Assembly: GCF_963678975.1 (NCBI RefSeq)
Contig: NC_089275.1
Coordinates: 48,941,883 to 49,005,882 of the forward strand
From: Dysidea avara
Taxonomy: Eukaryota; Porifera; Demospongiae; Dictyoceratida; Dysideidae
Direction: 5' to 3'
DNA length: 64,000 bases
Part shown: positions 3,001-12,000 of the stretch, one piece after another
Layout: every line of letters begins with the position of its first letter
How positions within the stretch are numbered: position 1 is the first letter of the stretch
Position numbers and translations under genes: made by a program
The notes under the pieces: generated by a model
The model's database searches: none
The model's input: only the letters and a program-made list of their open reading frames with translations
What the model was told of the DNA's origin: nothing

Positions 3001-6000
3001 GCACTCCATAATAGACACCAAGACCAAGGGAACTAAACAATTTAGTAGCCTCGATGGCCTGAGGCTGTAACGTCCCAAGTGCAGTGAGGGCACTACTAAG
3101 GGCCTGAGGGCAGGGATGTGCCCACAATGGTCGGCAGTGGTCGGGACCAACCACCACTCAGATAAAATAGCCACCAATCAACCAAAAATAACCACCACTA
3201 TTACTCACCATTCAGTACAAATGCACCACTAACTTTTGTAATTATAGCCATCCTAAACCTCAAGTCTGTTTTATAGCCACCACTATTCTAAACCTGGGCA
3301 CATCCCTGTGAGGGGTTACTAAATCACTTAGTTTCCATTGGTCGCAGTGTCTAATTATTAGTATATGGTTTAAACTACGTACCTTAAAGCCAGAGCATGG
3401 GATGAAAGAGCAATGCAGAACAGCGGAACAGTTTCTTCTTGAAGTCCTTACACCATGCACAAAAAAATTATTCGACCAGTAAGCAGAGTAATGGCTAGAG
3501 GTATAGTAGATACGTTGCTTAGTCTACTATTTGTTCAGAATTATTCGCAGAACATGGAGAAGAAGAGTATTACAGTATTATCAAGTACTGTAGTGTGTAC
3601 TGTAATGGTTTTCCCGTTCTATTTTATGGACGTTTAACAACTTTAAAACAATGTTAAAGGCCTCAGGCTACTAGAGGTAGCGTATCCTTTGACTTAAAAG
3701 GGGACGTTACCCGTACTTATGTGGATGAAAATGAAGGGCAGCCTTGAGGCTTTCTCTATGCAATTCGCACGAGAAAACAATAGACACACTATAAAATACA
3801 GTAGTTGAGAAGATATTTCATGTGTGTAATTTGCAGTTTAAAGTGGTTTATTTTAATTGATGCTTCCTTAGCAGTGCATAGCAACTAGTGCTGTATACCT
3901 ACAAAATTTTTCTCACTGGTTGATTGCCTACCAATAATTGCCAATAACCTGTTAATTGGTTTGTTTGTATATTGGCAGACAATGTGACTCAACAAGCCTG
4001 CTGGAAGGTTTAGGGTGGTGCCAAAGGGGAGTGTATAAACAGTGGAGTGGAATGGAATACTGGAATGGTGGAATGGAATTTTTTAAAGTTCAATATTATT
4101 TTTTACATCCAAATAAGTACAACCAAGAGTTCATAATATATATAAGGAAGAGAGAGTGTCGAACGGGTATTGATTCCACCAAACACACTGGGTAAAGTAG
4201 ACGTTTAACACCTCTGACGTGTCGAATACACTTCACTGGAGCATCGGCAAATGACAATTCTATCGTAGCGCAGTAGGAGTGCGCTTAAAGCCAAAACTTG
4301 ATATCGATACTGATTGAATCACGAGACCATACTCATTCCCGTTGACAATGAGCGAAGTAACAGGGAGTGTGAAAACTAGAAAAACGAAGAGGAAAGCGCC
4401 TTCTACCACCACGGCCAGTAAGAAGAAAAAGCAAGCCAGAGTATCCGCGAAGACGGCCAAGACACAAGAAGTCCGAGCACAAGACAGAGTTGACAGTTGT
4501 GAAATGGCGCGAGGTGAAACGGCTCAAGAGACTGCAAATCATCAAGATAATAGTAAGGTTCGTCAGCGAAGAATCTTGACTAAAGCGGAAAAGTCGAACG
4601 TCGCAGAGAAAGTGAAAACTTACAGTAGTGGAACGCTTTCTGTCATTGCAATGACAGCAGTAGGACATCAGTTGCCACTCAACGCTAGTGAAGAACTCAA
4701 ACAGTTTTGTGCGTCCGTACCTTTGAGTTCACTACACTGTTTAGCAGACCAATTAAAGAAGCAATTTGTAAGAATGTACAGTGACTGTTCAACATTGGCA
4801 GACAAATATTTAAAATTTCAACTCCAATGGCACCAGCACTGCAGTTACTATCTCGTAGACTACAATCGTGAGTTATCACTGATCGGATTGCACCCAGATG
4901 ACCCCATTGCAGTTGATGTTGTGTTGTGTCAGTCCGCTCCCAGTGGCACCGTGTAGTGATGTTATATTCTTTGACAAAAGATGATGCAAAGAAATTTTTA
5001 ATTTTGTTTTGCAGCTGTGTTTATGATGAGCTTCTCCGTACTTGTCATTCAGCCATTGAAGTTCACCAGGAACCTACACCAACATGTTTCGAAGATAGTG
5101 ATGATGTTTATTATCGCTTTGGAGGGGCATCCCTATCAAGCATGTTGCACAACAGGTACTCACAAATAAAGTCTTGTGGATTATCACTAAAGGAAAGAGT
5201 ATCTCTAGAGATTAGTGTTCTGCAGAAATTAAGCATACACAAAATTGAGGAGAAAATTCACATTCCAAGCTACTTGAAATACAGGGATTGTGGATACATG
5301 TATTTTCCGTGTGAAGAGCTGATGCCATTTTTGAAAGCTGTTGACACTGCCACTACTAAGAGCTGTACAGATGAAATGTTTAGACGTGAAGGATCAAAAT
5401 TGTTAACCACACTGGCTGTATCTATTGAGAAAGATTCCAATCTTTGGTTGCTATTTGTAAATTCTGTGTTGTCAAAAGTGTCAGAGTTGAGAGATGTTAG
5501 CTCATCTTGCTTAGATGGAGTGTTTAAAGAACTGACTCGTAAATTGTGTCATATCAGAGTTCAAGAATATCTAGATAGTTTCAAACAAACAGAAGCTTCC
5601 AGTAAAGGAAGCGGTACTTTGGCAAGACAGAACTTACGAGACTTGTTGTTAAGCCATCATGTAAACCTTAAAACTAAAATAAAATAACTGATTTGTACTG
5701 AGGTGTTTTGTCTGTGTTATTTCTTACTGTATAGTTAAATTTTTATGAAAATTCACATGGGAAATATTTGGGGAATTGTGATAAATTTAGAAGTGCAATA
5801 TTACAATAATGAATGAATAAGAATTATTTGTCATTACGTTTGTACTTCTTTTTTTCCAGAATACACTCCGATAATTCCAATGGAACATCTCTGTACCCTT
5901 TTGATCCATCATGGAAGGTTACACAATGCTTCACAAGATGTGCAGCTCTTGCTGTAGAGTAGTTAGTGGCACTCAGTTTACCTCCACGTGTGTGTTTAAA

Positions 6001-9000
6001 TTGGCTGAAGAGAGTTTCAACAGCACTTCCTGACAATCTTACAGGGCTGACAAAGTGATCTGGATATTCCTCCAAAAACCAGGTTGTGTAGCCTATGAAC
6101 CCATAGACACAAACCCTGAGAAGATCAAATGCTGTATACATGATTAAAAACATGACACTAGCAAAACTTGATAAATCATGTGCTTACTTTGCCAGCTAAT
6201 AAACCTTCTGTCTTGTGCACTTAATTCACCTATATAACAGAAACCAATTGTATACATAACAGAAATGTTTCTTGTAGTTAATAGCACACTATGGCATTGC
6301 GTGCCCCTTTGCTAATAGTAAGGGTCTAACGAGACGTGCAAACACAATATCCAGTCACTCAACTACCATATGCTATGGTCACCAGATTTTAGCAAAGGGT
6401 GGGTGCTGCTAGACTAACACTATAGTTGCAATTATCATGAATACAAAAGCTTACCGTCCTTTGAGAGGTTAGTATGCCAGTTCACAAAGAATGAATACCC
6501 TTCTTTAATCGACTTCACTACCTTGCTGTCGATATCACAAACTTTCTCATGACTAAGTAGCCCCTTTTCAAACAACTTCTGACAGGCCTCCAAGTAATGC
6601 AATGTAGCTTTGACACTCTCAACATCAGCAGGTGGAGGGTCTTGAATTGTGTAACTGTATAATTCTGACAAAACATTCTCTTGCTAGAGGTTTGAGAATG
6701 ACAACCAAACAATTTTGCTTCGTGCTTACTTGCATAATCTTAGCAGGCATGACATTGAGCTTTGTCCATGAGTCACGAAGTATGTAAGCCTCACGTAACC
6801 TGGGTACCATTCGGGCATTTCCATTATCTCTTCTGGAACATTCTCGCGAGTACATGTCTAAAATGGTCTTCCAATCAAAATTAGTACCATTTTCATCGGT
6901 AAAACGCTTTGTTCCTCCATCTTGGGACGAGAACAGAGCGTTGATCATATTCTTCAACTAATATATGAAATATAAAACCATCACACAACTTTACTAAACA
7001 TACCTGGTGGCTAGGGCATATTAGCCAGTAGACGTTACGCAAAGGATCATATGGGTTGACAAACCAAGGCTTGATCATGTAAGTGTCTGGACCATCCCCG
7101 GTGCCATACATACCATAATGTCCATGTGTGGCTTTTAATGCTGACAGATTTGTAGCAGCTCCATCACAAATAAGGAGACCTGTCCGCAGCCCATGAACCT
7201 AGATTTAATATATACAGTACAAATATTATTATATGTCACCAACTTACATGGAAAAGCTTTATTGTTTCCAAAACACATGAACAAATGAACTTCCCATTCA
7301 TCGAATCTTCACTGGAAAAATATGGCCCCACAATATCAAAAGAAGATGTAACATCTCTCCACAAAAACTGGAGCATATATTTTGTTTGCTTAATCCGACG
7401 ATCCTTGTCGAATAACTGAAAAACATCATGTAGCGATGCTTGATCTTCCTCTGTCATAGCCAAGCCAATAATTTTGTGGTTTCGCGAGTTCCACATCAGT
7501 GAAGATACTACCTTGACTTCATCAAAGATTATTACTCCATCAGACTTTGGCAGCAACTTCCCTTCAGCCTTACAACTTTCCTTGAATATTCCGTACTTCT
7601 CTACTTGCTTTCCAATTGCCTCCCGGTATGCTCCTGCTTCATCTAAAAATGCCCCTGTGTATGATTGTAAAGTTGCTCTTGATGGAAGCTGCAAAATATT
7701 GAAACTCTTGAGAGCTTCATAGGCAGCAGGACTGCGAACAAATACAGCTAGAGCTACATATAAGAAGGTTTGCTAATAACATACACATGAGACAAGCAAC
7801 TACTTACCTACTCTAATTGTAACTAAACTCCATCGATTACAGCGCTTTCCATTTTCTACAATTTTCATCCACTAACAAAAATCAACAAAAAAAATCACCG
7901 AACTTACCATTCTTGTGTTGGTCCTTAAAAAAACTTTTTTTGCCATTTAGTTTGTCTGCTTCCCAAGAGTTGCGAACAAGATCACCCACTGCATGGTCAT
8001 CTCCTTCTTGAAATATCTTGTCCAATTCGTTTGGACATGTCTCTTCAATCCTTTTTATTACATCGCAAAGCTCATCAGACTGGTCATCATCTAGTGGTAC
8101 ATCCAACTCCTCATGCTTTGCTAATTTGGCCTTATCAGCTGAACGTTCTGTTTGAGCAGCCTTCTTCCTTGCAGCTGTACTTAGAGGAGATAGATATTTC
8201 AATTTGAAGTGAGATGATGACTGTTGCCGGGCAACTTTCCGGGCTGGGCTAACATCTGTTTGGCGCTTTCGATATTCCAAGTTGGTACAGAGACGCTTAC
8301 AGCTGCCACACAACACTTCTAGCGATTTCTTTTCTTCTTTACTCTGATTCTTTGAAAGCTGATGCCACATGGAACAATTCTTCGAGTCAATCCGGTTAAA
8401 AGGCTTTTCCCATATCCTCACACTTTTTATATGATAGCGAATAGTAGCAAAGAAAGTGTCATAATAGAACTTTTCATTTAAACCAGGACAGAATTTGTAC
8501 TGAGCATCGGTTGATAATTTGCTGCATACTGACATAAATTCGTCCAAATTAGCAACACTTCCAGTCTCTATTGATGAGAAGAGGACTTGTAAATCATAAG
8601 TAAATCCAGACGGCTCTACTTGATTGAATGTGATCCTGGCTACTGATATAAGACCACTTCCAGACACATGGTGCATTCTCTTGGGTGTCACTTCCAATTT
8701 AACTTTTCTGTTATAATCTTTCTTCAAGAAAAACAACTCTGGATAAGTGGCCTGGCCCTTGGTGACAGCACTCTCTAAACACAACAATTCTGTTGGTTCA
8801 TTCTCTGAAGCATCAGGTAACTGCATTGACTCCTCTAAGCTGGATTGATTGGCTACTAGTTCAGTGTCGTTCGATAAATGTGGAGGTTGGGTAGAAACTG
8901 ATGATGGGTCAGGCTGCAGACTACATGGTCCATACCCCAGACAACTTGAAGTACCATTCTGTAAAAGTTGTGGAAATTTTGTTATAACAGGCATTGACCA

Positions 9001-12000
9001 TGGCCATTGCTGTGGGGTTTCTGCAATACTTGGGGGAAGCAGAAATGTTGGTTGAACAGTGCTGAAAGTCTGTACATGAGCAGAAAAAATAATAGTAAAA
9101 ATGCGATGGCTGTGCATTAAAATCAATATTCATTACCTCTGTTGAATAAATCTGTTCAGCTTGTGGTCCAGTAAATCCGTGTAGATGCTGACTGGGTACT
9201 GAAGGCCGCCACTCGAATGGCTGTATCTGGGATTGACAACTCGACACCGCAGGATTTGACTGTTCGTGGTGCTGTGGAGCGGCAGAGAAGTCACGGCACG
9301 TGTCTCGGAGCTGTGTGATTAGAACAGAGCATACATTTCTTCTTCGATTACATTGATACTAACCCCAGCGTTGCTGTCTTGGTTACTGTTTACTAGGTCC
9401 TCCTTATCAGCCAAACGACGGCGCTTGCTGACCGAAGCAAACCGCCTAGGCGTCAGAGTTTCTTCACCACTCATATCGTAAAAAGGAATTCCACTGAATG
9501 CTGTATCGGCTATCGAAAGCCATACACTAGAGAAGGTCTTCAACGTTATCATCGCTTATCAACAGCCTTTGTCAAGTCTGTAAGGTGATAACAAAAAACG
9601 GGGTTTAACGATAATTTACGAGTTATATTTTACCCAGTGTGTTTGTATGGGGTCTATTGAGCGTTCGACACTCTCTCTTCCTTATATATATTATGAACTC
9701 TTGGTACAACTCCTCCCCTTAAGTAAGCAAATTAATAGGATTTCCCTTGAAGTCAGCTCTTTTAGCATAATTCACCTCATTATAGACAAAGTTTACCAAT
9801 GTAATGATGTAATGTCAGTTATGAACATGCACAATAGCAGTTTATTATGAATACCAAGAAGACTCCTGACTTAACCCTTGTTCCCAATAAATATTAGCTA
9901 GCTAGTTGATTACATGTGTGCATTGTAAAAGTACATGCACTATATAATGAAGTATTTGTTTATTTATTATCAACTTTACCAGTTAGGCACTGAGGGCGAA
10001 CACAAAGGGCAGAGCCTGTATGAGGTGTTTACCACTAACCTTGGAGCCTAAGTGAAAATCTTTGGGAAAAGTGAAACGGGACTATCTTGTAAGTGTTTAC
10101 AATGAGCCATTTCCACAATTATGTCAAAAAAAACAAAATTTAAGCCAAAGTTCATTGTGGTAGTGCCACGTTGTACACTGAACTGAACCTTCATTAAGAC
10201 AGTTAGTTTCAGACAAGTAATAAAGTATTGAGTTGTAAGTCATACAAGTGTTGTGGTGAGGAAAAGTATGCTAAAAGAGCTGACTTCAAAAGGAATCCTA
10301 TTTATTTGCTTACTTAAGGGGAGGAGTTGTACTTATTTGGATGTAAAAAACTTTTAAAAATTCTATTCCACCATTCCAGTATTCCACCATTTACACTCCC
10401 ATGCCAAATTAACCATCAACATCCTGTCTTGCAATAACAGTTATTACAATCACATATTTACACATACTTTGAGGTTATGTTATGATGTTAACACTTGTCA
10501 GCAGGGGTAATTTATGGTTTACCAAGTGGGTGGGCAATATCTGGTTTAAAGGTTTCTTCACCAGTTATTGGCTGACCTAGACAACACCAGTTAATAACTG
10601 GTTAATTGGACACTGGTTTACAGCACTAATAGCGATGTAATTACCAAATTGCAAAATAATTCATAAATTATGAAATATGCTGAATTACAGTAGTATTTAT
10701 TGCATGGGCGCCTGGTTTTTATAAGCAGCATAACATCAACTTGTGTTCAGTGTAGTCATCAATTACTTTGCTATTTCCTACTGTCTATGGTATAATTCCA
10801 AAACTAATTACAGTGGACCCTCAGTATGGTAGGTCATTTGTTTCAAAAATAAAATTTAACATTTGATATAAAAATTTTATTTAATATTTGATTTTGTACT
10901 ACATTTTAATATTCGATATTGAACATTTGTTATTTGATATTTAATATTTGATGTTAAATATTTGTTATTTGATTTTTATTATTTGATATTTGATACTTAA
11001 TATTTTGTTATTTGATTTTCCATATTTATTTGAATTTGATATCGTTATGGGTTATCAATATGGATACAGTATCAGTTTATATTATCGGGTTCTAGTAATC
11101 ACGAGATCCGTCCAGTTCTTAAGATGCAGGTCAGGTGATCCCGGCACGGCAGTTATTCGCGAGGTGCAGGTGTGAACATGAGCAGTGCGGATAATAATGA
11201 AGCTCTATCCGAGGTGAGAATTTAACAAGACTGTAATAGTGTTTGCTGTCAATCGAGGGTGATTAACACCCGGCGGTGGTCCAGTTGACTACACGTGCTT
11301 CCTGGCGAACAAATGCCGTGCCGGGATCACCTAACCTGCATCTTAAGAACTGGACGGATCTCGTGATTACTAGAAACCGATAATATAAACTGATACTGTA
11401 TCCATATCGATAACCCATAACGATATCAAATTCAAATAAATATGGAAAATCAAATAACAAATGTGACCGGATTTCACAAAACCAGGCTTCCACACACACA
11501 AAATCAAACTTACGATTTTACCAGAAATGGATTGCTGGTCTAATACACTATCATATTTCACACTGTACCTCCTTCAGCACTGACAAGTCTGGTTTCTGTA
11601 GCAGCTTTCTTCCGACCCTGTCAAAGCCACGAGTGTGAGATTGGCACCATTAAATGGCCATGGCTTTGTGATAATGGTGTGTAGTGAGCTGGGACTTCAC
11701 AGAGAGCTCGCCAATAGTGTTCTCAGTCAATTTGGAGTAATTTGAGGGCCATGGAGGGCCATGGAGAGCCCAAACTTGGCCTCTGGATTCCAATCGTCTT
11801 CTTACTCCATTTTATACCCGTATATTAAGACCACCATCCACCCCCACCCTCCCACCCTATTACTGCCATCTGTGATATTATTACCCGCTCGAAAAAAGCT
11901 GCTCAAAACAGGGCAAATTTTGGGTATCAGAAATGTATACACCCACTCAGTGATAGCTAGTGAACAGATGAACAATTGGTGCAAATTTTGTTTGCACAGC

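Follow-up and report, generated by a model that had tools for sequence, protein, structure and literature searches.

Does the second gene enclosed by a P-like transposon of the sponge Dysidea avara belong to the transposition machinery of the element and, if so, as what? In the literature consulted, the P element is described as coding for a single transposase, and searches of open-licence PMC papers showed no two-gene P element among the papers listed. At positions 4124–9703 of the window (the whole stretch of 64 000 nucleotides that was analysed) lies a cut-and-paste transposon of the P superfamily whose two genes are convergent, an architecture that is well documented by the data below. A sequence-only reading had described this element as apparently intact and had left its second protein unassigned.

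Ends, copies and transposase of the element

The outer bounds of the transposon are terminal inverted repeats (TIRs) of 42 bp at 4124–4165 (plus strand) and 9662–9703 (minus strand), the right being a perfect inverted copy of the left. In the left TIR, CAAGAGTTCATAAT lies on the outer side and a GAGAGTGTCGAAC box, at 4152–4164, on the inner side. The 7 bp target-site duplication (TSD) GTACAAC flanks the element at 4117–4123 and 9704–9710. An inverted-repeat search returned 44 nt rather than 42 because two TSD bases pair too. The same search gave a subterminal inverted repeat of 20 nt with a 95% match (4180–4199, plus strand; 9626–9645, minus strand, 95% complementary to the left copy); the left repeat holds the CAAACACACTG box, which is common to both ends in aligned relatives. 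The TIRs, TSD and subterminal repeats were thus all as the sequence-only reading had given them. An Rfam scan of the window produced no match.

A search for other copies with the same ends, which that reading had proposed, identified two sister copies (C12 and C15). Both are about 99% identical to the window copy, carry the second gene and have 7 bp TSDs of their own (CTACAAC and ATGTATT). Among 20 elements with both ends found, the 7 bp TSD was perfect in 17, had one mismatch in two and failed in one (L041). The pattern CAAGAGTWCATAAT occurs 3454 + 3446 times in the genome, compared with 7 + 6 times for the pattern read backwards, an abundance that exceeds chance. The thousands of TIR ends present in a single genome mark the system as clearly productive. 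The sister copies each carry a different insert (about 0.8 and 1.2 kb) in intron 1 of the transposase gene, at 9354–9358, where the window copy has none. Gene capture was considered for these inserts and dropped, as inspection by eye showed other elements lying outside the architecture described here: a TIR element with an 8 bp TSD in C12 and, in C15, a fragment whose reading frame looks like the C-terminal part of a non-LTR element.

The transposase gene (5824–9474, minus strand) was modelled from sequence with splice sites chosen by hand. Its ten exons are 9474–9364, 9310–9137, 9069–7908, 7855–7808, 7753–7248, 7198–7004, 6957–6730, 6683–6455, 6229–6188 and 6131–5824, the last including the stop codon. 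Ten unbroken exons had been predicted and were recovered in the window copy, and the same model is open in C15; the length is 1000 codons, not the earlier estimate of about 1026. With 34.5 bits (E = 2.9e-8), against a cut-off of 24.6, the spliced protein matches Pfam PF21787, the catalytic RNase H domain of P-type transposases, and this domain-profile check bears out the earlier assignment to the P superfamily. The catalytic signature consists of D576, D679, C728-x2-H731 and E937; the D, D, C, H and E residues are kept in 18, 16, 18, 14 and 18, respectively, of the 18 loci with coverage. Canonical P/THAP9 transposases have a GTP-binding insertion between the second D and E; here C(2)H and E are 206 residues apart, a spacing similar in size to that of fly P. 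The Cys/His set of the transposase is largely conserved.

The Pfam search of the spliced transposase found no THAP finger at E ≤ 10, as expected from the sequence-only reading, and no match to PF12596. The sequence-only reading had named the Cys/His region and the partner as possible sources of DNA binding. An AlphaFold2 (AF2) model of the N-terminal region, which holds the Cys/His set, was poor (pLDDT 55.7), so no DNA-binding domain can be named there. The chain stops 63 residues past the catalytic Glu. By hand count, six of the transposases read end 63–78 residues past this residue, and two others run on into a Ulp1-protease domain.

TSDs of 7 bp occur in some P-superfamily members. The element resembles Drosophila P and THAP9, as far as these are described in PMC7776569 and PMC8230255, in its multi-exon transposase, which has the RNase H domain PF21787 and the signature D-D-C(2)H-E, and in its TIRs, which are accompanied by a subterminal inverted repeat. 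It differs from canonical P/THAP9 in having a second, convergent gene rather than a single transposase gene, in lacking a THAP match and in a transposase chain that ends 63 residues after the Glu without a C-terminal domain (CTD). The TSD of fly P is given as 8 bp in PMC7776569, compared with 7 bp here.

Recurrence of the partner gene

The second gene, referred to here as the partner gene, lies on the plus strand at 4348–5687. In both sister copies it is a single intronless ORF of 444 or 442 amino acids. In the window copy it is split into two frames (4348–4956 and 4917–5687) by a 5 bp tandem duplication at 4917–4921 (plus strand), which neither of the other two copies compared shares. The convergent gene reported earlier is therefore real, but its two-exon model of about 425 residues was an artefact of the duplication and is ruled out by the sister copies, which show no intron. 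Since the partner frame is broken in the window copy, 'apparently intact' was wrong for that gene there.

A broken frame and the want of any named domain might suggest a chance reading frame or a host gene captured by a single element. The protein has 103 genomic matches, and its frame is open in many copies. At 75 of 87 merged loci a convergent transposase lies within 6 kb; no other orientation was seen, and at 12 loci no transposase was listed. Further loci extended this linkage. Both genes were present in all eight relatives picked by DNA similarity (one with a partner fragment only), a transposase was found at seven of eight diverged partner loci, and, on direct reading, four of five transposases without a listed partner do have one. 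Conservation of the second gene inside the TIRs, as the sequence-only reading had proposed, therefore holds; it has survived the refutation test that this reading set for itself, and extends to diverged families down to about 25% identity. Between families, pN for the partner is 0.22–0.47 and pS 0.74–0.81; pN is far below pS, which is saturated, and the partner thus shows signs of purifying selection. Across 13 loci, partner distances correlate with transposase distances (r = 0.77). The pN/pS values and the transposase linkage rule out the chance-frame and captured-gene readings, to which we attach next to no probability.

Among the matches listed, the partner is confined to this P lineage. 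Searches of viral contigs, prokaryote contigs and phages returned no relatives.

Constraint and linkage do not by themselves assign a role. The partner could be a regulator or an anti-silencing factor, dispensable for the cut-and-paste reaction. It is broken in the window copy and in L011, L013 and L028–L030, while their families have copies, and one element (L037) has a partner gene without a transposase. However, broken copies say little, since they can be mobilised in trans, and long-term constraint and tight linkage fit either role. We regard a dispensable regulator as unlikely.

Second genes of the other P lineage

A second set of P elements in the same genome (L044–L050, family I) scores far higher with PF21787 (45.9–93.8 bits among the 150 matches listed). 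Such elements had been intended as a one-gene control, but those read carry second genes too, and this changed the interpretation. A convergent second ORF of their own lies downstream of the transposase at three of three and three of four loci read. Family I thus shares with the window element a P transposase with a convergent downstream second gene; the TIRs of L046 differ from those of the window element.

Three of six family-I second ORFs match PF12596 (Tnp_P_element_C) at E = 0.097–0.14, below the curated cut-off, and three do not. An HMM of the family-I second gene finds the partner of L037 (E = 2.4e-5), and the partner HMM finds the second ORF of L046 (E = 3.1e-5), its only clear match among the six family-I ORFs. 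The similarity between the two second genes is remote but above shuffle; the hhalign probability is low (15% and 5% in two comparisons), and the partner searches miss the family-I second genes, with no overlapping loci.

The partner itself had no sequence match in Pfam or the PDB. Partner proteins gave no match to PF12596, so that direct similarity to the CTD was not found; the partner of L032 comes close to the threshold for PF24965, a different helical domain (E = 5.3e-5). The protein is mainly helical with a basic N-terminus. Its AF2 model is weak (pLDDT 62), and a fold search with this model gave no match at E ≤ 0.001. The fly CTD is smaller than the partner of about 444 residues.

A candidate split transposase

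Alternatively, the partner might be an accessory protein that arose independently, and not from the C-terminus of the transposase, and that would aid end binding, nuclear import or regulation. The missing Pfam and PDB matches and the weak resemblance between its profile and that of the family-I second gene are consistent with such a protein, and its basic N-terminus would suit DNA or RNA binding. Two-gene elements with accessory proteins are also described elsewhere (KolX in Kolobok, PMC9587614; RAG2L in RAGL, PMC7204232). Against this, the partner resembles the second gene of family I, remotely but beyond shuffle level, and that gene is itself near PF12596; moreover, the short transposase C-terminus leaves the CTD missing. 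We consider an independent origin possible but doubtful.

The reading that we prefer, with some confidence, is a split, two-polypeptide P transposase in which the plus-strand partner is the separately encoded counterpart of the CTD. The CTD of fly P is described in PMC7776569 as helical and DNA-contacting. The short end of the transposase corresponds to a CTD missing from the chain, and we count it in favour of the split. Identity of the partner as a P transposase CTD is a matter of remote homology only and is probable at best. In a split transposase, the RNase H (DDE) protein of the minus-strand gene would cut at the TIRs and join the ends to a 7 bp target. The partner would join it in trans, presumably by protein–protein contact, and would contact transposon-end and target DNA like the helical CTD of Drosophila P. 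It would then be needed for transposition, and its gene may have begun as part of the transposase before becoming independent.

For both main P lineages found in the genome to be split, with the C-terminal DNA-handling domain as a separate convergent gene, we see even chances. With a separate CTD gene in both, the split layout would be the ancient state and the fly element, with its one gene, the product of a fusion, or else the change ran the other way.

Other transposons combine a DDE transposase with a second protein. In RAGL (RAG1L–RAG2L) the transposase and its partner likewise lie tail to tail between TIRs (PMC7204232), but RAGL belongs to another superfamily, has a 5 bp TSD and has RAG2L as partner. 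None of the comparisons made indicated homology of the window element to RAGL, and PF21787 was the only domain in its transposase. Kolobok lineages also pair a DDE transposon with a second protein, encoded on the other strand in KolobokP; they too are of another superfamily, and their accessory proteins, compared by description only, are KolX or nucleases (PMC9587614).

The two-gene P layout parallels the convergent RAG1L–RAG2L arrangement. A conserved second gene, perhaps encoding the CTD as a protein of its own, would give a natural two-component P transposase. If the split is correct, experiments could ask which domain deals with the transposon ends and the target and whether the activity can be divided and put together again; a fusion origin of the one-gene P element would become testable as well.

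The element and its copies

The element lies at positions 4124-9703 of the window (G000:C4:48946006-48951585); the genome searched comprised 550.8 Mb in 108 contigs. The arms at 4122-4165 and 9662-9705 are 100% complementary, and because their outermost two bases belong to the target-site duplication (TSD), the terminal inverted repeats (TIRs) measure 42 bp. Subterminally, the two ends share a 20-nt inverted repeat with 95% complementarity, and GTACAAC flanks the element on either side. Two more full-length copies, on C15 and C12 (about 99% identity over the aligned parts), are flanked by CTACAAC and ATGTATT, respectively; since each copy has its own TSD, the three are independent insertions. 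In these sister copies (L009 and L010), transposase intron 1 is interrupted at nearly the same position (about window 9356), in each copy by a different insert (about 0.8 and 1.2 kb). The C12 insert is bounded by TIRs and an 8-bp TSD and contains, by eye, a PHD-finger-like reading frame.

Three motifs recur at both ends of seven aligned elements, with single-end exceptions: CAAGAGTWCATAAT, a box like GAGAGTGTCNAAC further in and a subterminal box resembling CAAA-n-CAC; the TIRs of the related element L042 differ from the rest (CAGGAGCTTATAAG...). Among 20 elements of the lineage for which both ends were located, the 7-bp TSD is perfect in 17, has one mismatch in each of L011 and L017 and fails in L041; its second base is T in 17/17 tabulated TSDs. 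Genome-wide, the outer TIR 14-mer has 3454 + 3446 exact copies (~6900) versus 7 + 6 for the reversed pattern used as a control. Many of the 100 listed places pair up in inverted orientation with under about 500 bases between them, the pattern expected of short non-autonomous copies and consistent with a large MITE-like population.

The transposase and its partner gene

The transposase was modelled with hand-chosen splice sites as ten predicted exons totalling 1000 codons; the frame is open in C15 and the window copy and is shifted in C12 by a 2-bp deletion in exon 10. The spliced C15 protein matches PF21787 (TNP-like_RNaseH_N) at 34.5 bits (cut-off 24.6). The P-superfamily signature, given as D, D, [C/D](2)H, E in PMC8230255, is complete in this transposase (D576, D679, C728-x2-H731 and E937), and D576, D679, C728, H731 and E937 are retained in 18, 16, 18, 14 and 18, respectively, of 18 loci with coverage, a count that takes in three near-identical copies. 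The domain match and the complete signature bear out the P-superfamily assignment made in the sequence-only reading. Its observation that no THAP finger is visible also held: a Pfam search with the spliced C15 protein gave no family besides PF21787 at E ≤ 10. A separate N-terminal Cys/His set (C277, C289, H308, C327, H331, C349 and C352) is largely conserved, H331 least so; the AF2 model of this region is poor (pLDDT 55.7).

The partner gene starts at 4348 on the plus strand and meets the minus-strand transposase tail to tail, with ~136 bp between them. It is a single ORF in the sister copies (444 aa in C15, 442 aa in C12) and is broken in the window by an extra 5 bp, a tandem duplication at 4917-4921. 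The element had been read as apparently intact and the partner as two exons; neither holds, and the supposed intron was recognized as this frame break, an artefact, once the sister copies were compared.

A PDB sequence search with the partner gave no match at E ≤ 0.05, and a Pfam search with partner proteins gave nothing above cut-off. Sub-cut-off matches were inconsistent among members and were treated as chance, although the best (TRS130_4HB, E = 5.3e-5, L032 only) could be otherwise. The AF2 partner model is mainly helical, at low confidence (pLDDT 62.4), and a fold search with it returned no match. Between families, the partner has pN of 0.22-0.47 and pS of 0.74-0.81, the latter saturated (Nei-Gojobori, custom script); the C15-C12 pair (pN 0.006, pS 0.007) is too close to be informative. 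Partner and transposase-core distances are correlated (r = 0.77, permutation p = 0.0001) over 13 loci, after exclusion of WIN (the window copy), L010, L012 and L017 (near-duplicates) and of L014 and L037 (coverage). The correlation shows shared descent of the two genes, not contact.

Recurrence of the gene pair

Joint recurrence of the two genes, proposed as a check in the sequence-only reading, was observed in all eight relatives picked by DNA similarity (L011-L018; the L014 partner is a fragment), and a partner, sometimes broken, was present at 12/12 further sites adjoining transposase matches. Genome-wide searches gave at least 103 partner matches (95 of 421 candidates scored) and at least 150 catalytic-region matches (150 of 394 scored). 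Among the matches listed, a convergent transposase lies 6 kb or less from 75 of 87 merged partner loci, no locus has one in another orientation and 12 are without one; conversely, a partner lies beside 75 of 150 transposases and 24 of the best 25. Five of the 75 transposases lacking a partner among the matches listed were read directly, and four have one. These four include the most distant, L042 (catalytic region 41%), with partner pieces at about 24-29% against other partners; direct reading of L043, a rearranged fragment, found no partner. A transposase was present at 7/8 partner loci sampled across the identity range, the exception being L037, where a 1.7-kb TIR- and TSD-flanked element (L037:746-2462) holds a partner gene and no transposase.

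L028, L029 and L030 are copies of one family with an identical partner frame break, as if amplified after the partner broke. By eye, the partner in the diverged clade of L031, L033, L034, L036 and L037 seems to be interrupted by a single intron, close to residue 350 in the numbering of the window family; in the other families read it has no intron.

A second P lineage and a possible split transposase

A PF21787 genome search, run as a control, gave at least 150 matches, those listed scoring 45.9-93.8 bits, all above the window transposase. A single one of the 150 listed has a partner locus 6.5 kb or less away, at which a transposase of the partner's own lineage is also present; thus, among the matches listed, the partner keeps to the window lineage. 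Elements of this other lineage, family I, carry their own convergent second ORF, found at the first three loci (L044-L046) and at three of four more; at the fourth, L047, the PF21787 match is followed some 8 kb downstream by a second-ORF match on the expected strand, beyond the stretch read. Among the matches listed, a convergent PF21787 match lies no more than 8.5 kb from 55 of 105 merged second-ORF loci, two loci have one in another orientation and 48 are without one. Two transposases of this other lineage, L045:5534-6052 (+) and L047:1246-1740 (+), run on downstream into a protease domain of the Ulp1 type (E = 3.9e-25 and 1.2e-32, respectively, to PF02902).

The two second genes were compared directly. 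The L046 second ORF matches the partner in one piece by blastp (E = 0.002) and is found by the partner HMM (E = 3.1e-5; best shuffle 6.7 bits); with this HMM the L044 match is weak (E = 0.87), and the second ORFs of L045 and of L048-L050 (0/3) were not matched. Reciprocally, the family-I HMM finds the L037 partner (E = 2.4e-5) and reaches at least 7 bits in 8/51 partner-family ORFs (L037 and seven others, six of them copies of one family) versus 0/248 other ORFs and 2/1020 shuffles. Comparison with hhalign gave weak similarity, at P 0.0017 and 0.0089 (probabilities of 15% and 5%). Common segments are W...LL...E..RY.GGY / RFGGA...L and RGG / RDxGY. Three of six family-I second ORFs match Tnp_P_element_C at E 0.097-0.14 against all 24,736 Pfam models, which falls short of the curated cut-off, and the model positions that they match overlap; those of L046, L049 and L050 gave no such match at E ≤ 1.

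The fly P transposase has 220 residues after the catalytic Glu, whereas six transposases here have 63-78: 63 in the window and 67, 68, 71, 74 and 78 in L046, L048, L050, L044 and L049, respectively (counted by hand, with the last open frame taken as the last exon). The fly C-terminal domain is described in PMC7776569 as entirely helical, joined by a disordered linker and contacting transposon and target DNA. The most economical reading of these sequences is that the second gene represents a split-off transposase C-terminal domain. The boxes of the inner TIR and the subterminal region would be bound by the transposase, which the partner would then join in trans, and the RNase H centre would cut and join at 7-bp spacing; short TIR copies may be mobilized in trans. 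The convergent order would hold both genes within the same TIRs, likewise the arrangement of RAGL elements (PMC7204232). The conserved two-gene P architecture is real, extends beyond what the sequence-only reading observed and is broken in the window copy; a split transposase possibly underlies it.
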